DNA of 64,000 nucleotides from Candidatus Poribacteria bacterium (GTDB taxonomy: Bacteria; Poribacteria; WGA-4E; WGA-3G). The stretch covers positions 92,508 to 156,507 of the forward strand of contig JAPPIG010000071.1 in NCBI GenBank assembly GCA_028820635.1, written 5' to 3'. Shown here piece by piece: positions 58,927-61,459 of the stretch. Under the pieces are notes generated by a model. It was not told the origin of the DNA. It did not search any database and worked only from the letters and a program-made list of their open reading frames with translations. Positions within the stretch are counted from its first letter, which is position 1, and each line of letters starts with the position of its first letter. Position numbers and translations under genes: made by a program.

Positions 58927-59673
58927 CTAATACGTTGCCCTACCACCGCTTACATCGTAACACTGCCCTGTAACAAAACTCGCCTCATCTGACGCTAAAA
59001 AATTTACGACAGCAGCGACTTCCTCCGGTTTTCCAACGCGTCCCAACGGAATTTTACCTACCATATAGTCAATTGTTGACTGTGCCATACCCTCCAAAAT
59101 CGGTGTTCCAATTACTGCAGGCGATACAGCATTCACGCGGATGTTATAGTCCGTCACCTCTTTCGCAAGTGCCTTTGTCAAGCAGATAACCCCTGCTTTA
59201 GACACAGAATATGGAATAAGTGTTGGGTTGCCCTCTTTACCAGCAATTGAGGCGATATTCACTATTCTACCGTAATCCTGTGCAATCATCGTGTCAATAA
59301 CTGCCTTACAACAGAGGAAAACTCCCGTGAGATTTACGCCGATTACGGTATTCCAATCTGATTCTTCTAAATCCGTTAGTGGCAATGTACGCCCTGCGAT
59401 TCCAGCATTGTTGACGAGAATATCAACACGTCCGAATTCGGAGAGCACTTTGTCTACAGCAGCATTGACATCGGTAGACTGTGAAACATCCGCTTGAATT
59501 GGGAGTGCTTGTCGCCCAAGTTTTTCTATCTCCTTAGCAACAGCCTTGGCGGATGACAGGTTTAAATCCAGAATAGCAATATTAGCACCTGCATTCGCGA
59601 GTCTGATCGCAATCGCTTCACCGATGCCTTGTCCTGCGCCTGTCACAACTGCTATTTTATTGTTCAGGTTCAC
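58927..59673 (-). CDS. Short-chain dehydrogenase/reductase (FabG-like)
   Basis: This 248-residue classical SDR has NAD(P) motif VVTGAGQGIGEAIA, NNAG, catalytic Ser in NIASIAG and YSVSK (canonical YxxxK), with the ending FVTGQCYDVSGGRATY. It reduces or oxidises a carbonyl/alcohol; substrate unknown. It is unusual in this window for having an intact active site compared with the SDR at 39676. Its ATG (59673) overlaps the 3' end of the AhpD-like selenoprotein gene by 17 bp, so it is the third gene of that operon and translationally coupled. Confidence 0.93.
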   Translation of the reverse strand: MNLNNKIAVVTGAGQGIGEAIAIRLANAGANIAILDLNLSSAKAVAKEIEKLGRQALPIQADVSQSTDVNAAVDKVLSEFGRVDILVNNAGIAGRTLPLTDLEESDWNTVIGVNLTGVFLCCKAVIDTMIAQDYGRIVNIASIAGKEGNPTLIPYSVSKAGVICLTKALAKEVTDYNIRVNAVSPAVIGTPILEGMAQSTIDYMVGKIPLGRVGKPEEVAAVVNFLASDEASFVTGQCYDVSGGRATY

Positions 59674-60229
59674 TTGTCCACCTCTGTTCTAAAAAATCGT
59701 CTAATTCAATTCCAAATGCGTCTGCTATCCGATTGACATAACTGAAAAATCCTACAACCTCTACAATTGCGAACAATGCTTCATCAGTGAGGCCAAAATC
59801 ACGAAGTTTATTTAAATCTTCGGGGGTGACTGTATGCGCTGTCTCAGTTACCTTGACTGCAAATTCAAGGATAGCTTTCGTTACATCGTCAATATCAGCG
59901 GTTCGGAAATCTGAGGCAATTTGGGTTGCAATTCTTTTATCAGTGAGCTGATCACGCAACTCATCCGCATGCGCGACCGTTCAGTAGTGGCACTGATTTA
60001 CTTTTGAGACTACAGTAGCAATCATCTCGCGTTGTGCCCTACTTAGTGGTGAATCAGGGTCATGCATCACCACTTTGTAAAGCTCAACAAAAGCGCGCAT
60101 GCTTTTCGGACGAACACTAAATAACTTGACGATATTGTAAAGGTGACCAGCACGGGCAATTGCTGCGTCATATTCCTCTTTTACAATACCTGCCGCTTCT
60201 GCTTCGTCTACTGTTTGAATCCACGCCAT
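59657..60229 (-). CDS. AhpD-like peroxidase-related protein with in-frame TGA at the active-site Cys (putative selenoprotein)
   Basis: Read through one TGA (59981-59983), this is a 190-residue carboxymuconolactone/AhpD-fold protein of normal family length. The first half starts MAWIQTVDEAEAAGIVKEEYD and ends E68-x11-C80-H-Y. The TGA is codon 83, and T-V-A-H87 follows, giving E-x11-CxxU-x3-H, the exact AhpD active-site spacing with U in place of the activated second Cys. The remaining 107 codons keep the same frame to a stop at 59657 and read as the family's second half (VTEDLN-like helices, FFSYVNRIADAFGIELDDF). Alternatives: sequencing error or recent nonsense mutation. Overlaps the SDR gene by 17 bp; starts 3 bp after the repeat protein gene. 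Confidence 0.85.
59944..59963 (-). promoter_or_regulatory. Candidate bacterial SECIS hairpin
   Basis: Starting 17 nt after the TGA, UGAGUUG pairs with CAGCUCA (7 bp, one G-U) around the loop CGUGAU. The loop begins 24 nt after the TGA and has G among its first two bases, meeting the usual bacterial SECIS rules for spacing, small loop and G position. Confidence 0.65.
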
Positions 60230-60232
60230 TTC

Positions 60233-61459
60233 TTATTCACCAATGACAACACCGTATTCTCCAACAACAGCGCCTCTGTGTCCAGATTGATAATGCAGGT
60301 GCCTTTCACCAACAATGGGTTGTGAACTTTGCGCTTCAACAGAGCCGCGAATGTTCCCCATAGCGGCTTCGTCAACATCTGCACAACATCGCGGCTTGAT
60401 TCGCCGATGCAGCTGACGCCGGACTTCACCTTTTTTATTTCGGACAATAATGTTAACTAATGCATCATCTTCTCCGACATTAAGGAAACGGAACCAATCT
60501 CTTGCACCACTCGCTATTTCCGGGAAAAATAACCGAAGTCCAACATGTCCACCTTCTTCTGATGCCCCTGGCAGATCAATTACAGCAGTTCCACTGTGCA
60601 TGTGTCGTTCTGCCACAATCGGTTGATCACTACGTATCAATATGGAAGATTTGATTTTAATATCCTCCATCTTCGGAATCCAGCATTCAAAAGGATCCAA
60701 TTCTCGTTCCATCGTTGTCACCGGGTTTCCAGTTCCATCCTCATGTGCAATCATTGTTACCTCTGCCTGCTCTCTTCCAACATTGACAATAATTGCCCAG
60801 TCTCGCCATGCTGGGCCCACCTCTGGAAAGTATAGGGTTTTCGGTGCATCAGAGATAACTTGACCGTATTGTCCAACACAAGTTTTCCCACCTTGGTAAT
60901 GGAGATGCCGTTCACCAACAATGGGTTGCGTACTTTGTACCTCAAGCGTCCCTTGCACATTCCCCATCAAGCCTTCGGCAATATCCCAACAGCATAGTGG
61001 ATCAATTGCGTGGTGGCGTTGCCTGACAATATCGCCACGTCGGTTACGGACGATTATGTTTACTAACGCATCCGCCTCGCCAACGTTCAAAAATCGGAAC
61101 CAATCTAATGCTCCAGGAACCAATTCTGGAAAGAACAAACGCAAACCGACTGTTTCATATTCTTCCGCTGCACCTACGAAATCGAGGATATTTGTTTTAT
61201 TGTGCATGTGTCGTTCCGCCACAATCGGTTCATCCGCAGTAAGCTGCATTGAAGAATTCTGTTTAATTGCTTCTACGTTCGGTGTCCAACATTCAAATGG
61301 GGAAATCTCTTTTTCATCAGACCAAGTGGGTTGTCCGTTGGCAGCGTGTCTTGCTATTCCTGTCACACGGGTTTCTTCTGTACCTACATTGATTACTTGG
61401 ACCCAGTCTTCCCACTGAGGTCCTACTTCTGGAAAATATAACGTTGTTGCAAGTGCCAT
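60233..61459 (-). CDS. Novel four-repeat protein with ERHxH motifs
   Basis: The 408-residue protein consists of four repeats of about 101 residues, two A and two B types in an A-B-A-B order (202-residue tandem duplication). Each starts (L)xFPEVxPxxxDW..V/FLNVG and ends with ERHMH or ERHLH at 82-86, 183-187, 284-288 and 385-389. The A type carries PFECW, the B type a conserved CC (PLCCWD, PRCCAD) and GQYG/GEYG. No signal peptide. The beta-rich pattern suggests a sandwich with regular His sites that may bind metal. I do not recognise the family. AAGGAGA precedes the ATG; the AhpD-like gene starts 3 bp after its stop. Confidence 0.8.
   Translation of the reverse strand: MALATTLYFPEVGPQWEDWVQVINVGTEETRVTGIARHAANGQPTWSDEKEISPFECWTPNVEAIKQNSSMQLTADEPIVAERHMHNKTNILDFVGAAEEYETVGLRLFFPELVPGALDWFRFLNVGEADALVNIIVRNRRGDIVRQRHHAIDPLCCWDIAEGLMGNVQGTLEVQSTQPIVGERHLHYQGGKTCVGQYGQVISDAPKTLYFPEVGPAWRDWAIIVNVGREQAEVTMIAHEDGTGNPVTTMERELDPFECWIPKMEDIKIKSSILIRSDQPIVAERHMHSGTAVIDLPGASEEGGHVGLRLFFPEIASGARDWFRFLNVGEDDALVNIIVRNKKGEVRRQLHRRIKPRCCADVDEAAMGNIRGSVEAQSSQPIVGERHLHYQSGHRGAVVGEYGVVIGE

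Follow-up and report, generated by a model that had tools for sequence, protein, structure and literature searches.

The minus-strand hairpin that follows an in-frame UGA in the window (the whole 64,000-nt stretch of DNA analyzed here) is very likely a bacterial SECIS element (bSECIS) within the coding sequence of a Candidatus Poribacteria gene for an AhpD-like, peroxidase-related selenoprotein, a designation made because comparative evidence settles what the single sequence leaves weak. Judging from the same sequence comparisons, Sec is almost certainly inserted at the UGA. The features on which this assignment is based are collected in Table 1.

Table 1. Positions in the window of the selenoprotein gene, its hairpin and associated features
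Feature	Position	Strand	Remarks
AhpD-like peroxidase-related selenoprotein gene (predicted)	59660..60229	-	190 codons, UGA = Sec; TIGR01926; Pfam CMD
In-frame UGA	59981..59983	-	Sec83 (predicted); TGA in every full-length orthologue found, TGC/TGT in distant homologues
SECIS stem 5' arm UGAGUUG	59957..59963	-	96.1% of cells paired; covariation 0.270 vs 0.092 when shuffled
SECIS apical loop CGUGAU	59951..59956	-	C28, G29 and G31 invariant in alignment A1
SECIS stem 3' arm CAGCUCA	59944..59950	-	covariation; RNAalifold
Lower stem 5' strand CGG + bulged A (59964)	59964..59967	-	fold; only partly conserved
Lower stem 3' strand CUG	59941..59943	-	fold; pairs with 59967-59965 in the window sequence
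Competing free-RNA stem	59950..59978 (59978-59970 with 59958-59950)	-	complete in L017-L019 only; no conservation
Short-chain dehydrogenase gene, GTG start	58927..59673	-	17-base overlap with the 3' end of the selenoprotein gene

Geometry and folding of the hairpin

Read on the minus strand, the segment runs UGA ACGGUCGCGCAUGCGGA UGAGUUG CGUGAU CAGCUCA, which gives a stem of 7 bp, a loop of 6 nt and a spacing of 24 nt between the UGA and the loop. The initial annotation had proposed this very stem and loop, with the loop starting 24 nt after the TGA and a G as its second base, and the letters, coordinates and distance proved to be exact: the spacing falls inside the 16-37 nt range, the G (G29) is invariant in orthologues and is followed by U or G, and the hairpin lies, as had also been stated, inside the coding sequence, within the frame 60229-59660. 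The loop in orthologues has the form CG[G/U]GNN, in which C28 and G29 also open the codon of a conserved Arg and G31 opens the codon after it. The bSECIS rules of Zhang and Gladyshev (bSECISearch; quoted in PMC13188914) specify a spacing of 16-37 nt, a loop of 3-9 nt and an upper stem of 4-16 bp. The usual free-energy cut-off is -7.5 kcal/mol.

All of the bSECIS features cited in the initial annotation are present in the hairpin, but taken alone they discriminate weakly, as some hairpin with bSECIS geometry follows 59% of the 2,525 TGAs on the two strands of the window. A legal hairpin of at least 7 bp follows 6.2% of these TGAs, and one of at least 7 bp that is equally or more stable follows 1.8%, so that as a single sequence the hairpin is just mildly unusual. 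The minimum-energy fold of the free RNA is a different stem, formed by GGUCGCGCA (59978-59970) with UGCGUGAUC (59958-59950), which is absent from the initial annotation. With a z of about -1.4, folding of the single sequence is uninformative, and the isolated 7-bp hairpin has a free energy of -6.4 kcal/mol. When the first 15 nt were left out, as a rough imitation of the part inside the ribosome, the claimed stem became the minimum-energy fold at -10.1 kcal/mol, a value that includes the 3 additional bp below the bulged A (59967-59965 with 59943-59941); the middle pair of this lower stem is unpaired in 31 of 37 sequences. An Rfam scan of positions 59500-60400 returned no SECIS match.

The predicted selenoprotein and the Sec machinery

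The gene encodes the motif CHYU at residues 80-83 and ends at a stop codon at 59657-59659. Its product is assigned by sequence as an AhpD-like, peroxidase-related enzyme of family TIGR01926 with putative peroxidase activity: it scores 159.9 bits against the TIGR01926 profile (cut-off 81.8) and matches the Pfam CMD domain. Consistent with this assignment, the predicted model (pLDDT 79.7) has an all-helical, AhpD-like fold, with the AhpD-like structures 3c1l, 6k40 and 2pfx at TM 0.77-0.78. No variation was seen among 18 homologues at Glu68, Cys80, Tyr82, residue 83 or His87, and the spacing of E68, C80, Y82, U83 and H87 equals that of E36, C48, Y50, C51 and H55 in PA0269, a protein for which, as for AhpD of M. 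tuberculosis, the AhpD proton relay has been described (PMC3141380). The codon of residue 83 aligns with Cys in homologues, not with Trp, and in the AhpD CxxC motif the predicted Sec83 stands in the second Cys position. The predicted fold is shared with the CxxC debrominase Bmp8, and the protein might be read as a selenium version of that enzyme, acting not as a peroxidase but in the reductive dehalogenation of brominated compounds, which are abundant in sponges, loosely parallel to the Sec deiodinases; we consider this role very unlikely.

The genome from which the window derives encodes a tRNA-Sec with anticodon UCA (78.1 bits) that adjoins selB, a SelB with the C-terminal winged-helix domains SelB-wing_2 and SelB-wing_3, and both selA and selD. 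The selD gene (L069 1484-2410) is itself interrupted by a UGA, within the motif KCAGU, and has a small hairpin with a CGGGU loop. One TGA is present in all of the selD genes found in the Poribacteria group, and in the f4 genera the selD hairpin is a different one, AGUCC-AGUU-GGACU. The genes selA and selB have been reported to be common in sponge symbionts (PMC5649159).

The short-chain dehydrogenase gene lies 3' of the selenoprotein gene in every f1-family orthologue checked and is not in this position in most f4 orthologues. Just upstream of the selenoprotein gene, at 60233-61459 on the minus strand, is a gene for a protein of 408 aa with two similar halves (TLYFPEVGP... is repeated), for which no Pfam match was obtained. 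Most of the genomes of the window's own genus (G001-G017) are without the AhpD-like selenoprotein gene, the distribution of which is thus patchy, and nearly all of them keep the Sec-encoding selD.

Conservation, covariation and alternative explanations

Besides a single decayed copy (L059) and homologues at greater distance, a search over 97 genomes yielded 42 full-length orthologues with 57-99% identity, a count that includes the gene in the window. The TGA occupies the same codon in 42/42 of the full-length Candidatus Poribacteria orthologues, and their alignment 3' of it is gap-free. Across 41 Poribacteria orthologues, the cells of the stem were paired at the frequency given in Table 1, versus 24-40% when the partners were slid by 1-3 columns, and the covariation of the stem was not reached in any of 500 shuffles, relatedness being uncorrected in this comparison. 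RNAalifold, unaided, picked pairs 22-27/34-39, which correspond to the claimed stem.

Since the shuffles ignore relatedness, three further controls were applied, namely a tree, a codon shuffle and a gene-wide scan. A gene tree inferred from codons outside the hairpin calls for 8 or more changes of pair 24/37, which occurs as G-C, A-U, C-G, G-U and U-G and was paired in all 46 sequences. The full 6-bp stem is present in 41/42 genes; when synonymous codons were shuffled within each gene (2,000 trials), the mean was 7.3 and the maximum 16 of 42. One orthologue, L052, has lost the basal G-C pair. Along ~490 nt of the gene, the hairpin was the best-conserved legal 6-bp hairpin at a fixed position (41/42), and the next unrelated place reached 19/42. 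Comparison of the stem among TGA-keeping orthologues, a check that the initial annotation had named, thus revealed compensatory changes, with pair 24/37 never broken, and by these sequence-based measures conservation places the hairpin far beyond chance.

The Planctomycetota homologues L090 and L091 have the TGA and a full stem in the same register but written with other letters, for example CGACCTC/GAGGTCG, and the f4 genes likewise remake the stem with different letters. The initial annotation had also foreseen that equally good hairpins in relatives with Cys codons would speak against the element; the 6-bp stem was found in 0 of 17 Cys/Ser homologues, controls that are distant, and include plasmid-borne Cys homologues, because a close Cys orthologue was not found. 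In a distant AhpD-like Sec clade in the same class (L061-L064 and L066), the claimed stem is absent and ACGCRGA-GUU-UCUGCGU or a close variant is located instead 16-17 nt after the TGA, which implies that the SECIS has been moved or rebuilt and that the element is not universal across the wider family.

These comparisons bear on two other explanations for the hairpin. It could be a by-product of codon and amino acid constraint in the sequence E-L-R-x-Q-L/F with no role as RNA, in keeping with the fact that 3 of the 7 pairs are invariant in alignment A1 and that the residues around them are conserved at the protein level, but synonymous shuffling falls far short of the 41 genes observed, a silent GAG/GAA change is matched on the opposite arm by a Leu/Phe exchange via G-U intermediates, and the stem is spelled with different letters in the Planctomycetota and f4 genes, all of which leaves this explanation with hardly any likelihood. 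We judge it highly improbable that the functional SECIS is instead the more stable competing stem, with its bulged U and GGAUGA loop, even though the segment folds into that stem at minimum energy and the stem by eye resembles the element of E. coli fdhF, in which a bulged U is located two pairs below the loop. Only 61% of its cells are paired, it shows fewer pair types than shuffles and no covariation clearly beyond them, and it is complete only in L017-L019; furthermore, the 14 nt between the UGA and its loop fall short of the 16-37 nt range, and the ribosome would enclose its 5' arm.

Two further readings concern the UGA itself. One takes it as a genuine stop codon and the gene as a pseudogene or the product of a sequencing error. 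The state of one relative would agree with this: in the decayed copy L059 (genome G065) the frame is broken near the C terminus and a TAG lies in the 3' hairpin arm, although the stem happens to be still paired. The probability of this reading is nevertheless vanishingly small given that 42 orthologues in separate genomes have the TGA at the same codon with the later frame conserved, that residues 3' of the TGA are invariant across phyla, and that the start of the downstream gene overlaps. L059 was also considered as an additional compensatory case (A-U at 27/34) and was rejected since the gene is decayed. Alternatively, the UGA could be read in another way, by general reassignment or leaky readthrough, and the hairpin would then act as no more than a stimulator of readthrough, as stem-loops can in other systems. 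This is extremely unlikely in view of the alignment of the codon with Cys rather than Trp, the presence of tRNA-Sec, SelA, SelB and SelD together, and the listing of Sec members of the family in the literature (PMC13188914).

Proposed mechanism and comparison with known elements

For the favored reading as a bSECIS, we propose that with the UGA in the A site the stem-loop would be positioned just outside the mRNA entry channel, where, as we infer from established bacterial Sec insertion, the C-terminal winged helix of SelB would grip the CG(U/G)G loop. SelB-GTP-Sec-tRNA, bound while the UGA is in the A site, would then deliver Sec, and no stop would occur. Since the 5' arm of the competing stem begins 3 nt after the UGA, the ribosome would probably unfold this stem as it advances. 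In the finished protein, Sec83 would be placed beside Cys80, Glu68, Tyr82 and His87, where it may take part in redox chemistry.

The comparisons make it very probable that sponge-symbiont Poribacteria produce an AhpD-like selenoprotein, and automatic annotation is liable to end its gene at codon 83 or to start it late, at 59959. A literature search found no paper naming both Poribacteria and selenoproteins; this type of element is already known, and the Poribacteria example is new and well-supported. Because bSECIS geometry alone is passed by so large a share of TGAs, the covariation test can serve as a template for other candidates. The hairpin also provides a clean comparative case, in which a coding-region SECIS is held by compensatory change in two phyla and a distant Sec clade has a different hairpin.

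Relative to the bacterial SECIS consensus of Zhang and Gladyshev, the hairpin agrees in its spacing (24 nt), loop (6 nt) and upper stem (7 bp), as well as in a loop with G second and then U or G, but it reaches -7.5 kcal/mol or lower only with the lower extension, and it is not among the FDH-type elements. The selD of the same genome likewise has a hairpin after its UGA, with a loop that starts with CGGG as it does in most orthologues of the gene described here, but the selD hairpin has a 4-bp stem and a 16-nt spacing. The Sargasso Sea survey (PMC1088965) described AhpD-like selenoproteins with CxxU as a family, together with its bacterial SECIS; the Global Ocean Sampling data (PMC2398784) yielded AhpD-like CxxU families once more, and a 2026 inventory (PMC13188914) lists the family under TIGR01926. 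The gene described here belongs to the same family (PMC1088965, PMC13188914), with Sec predicted at the second Cys and the hairpin directly after the UGA, and differs in coming from sponge-associated Poribacteria and in having a short-chain dehydrogenase gene as its downstream neighbor.
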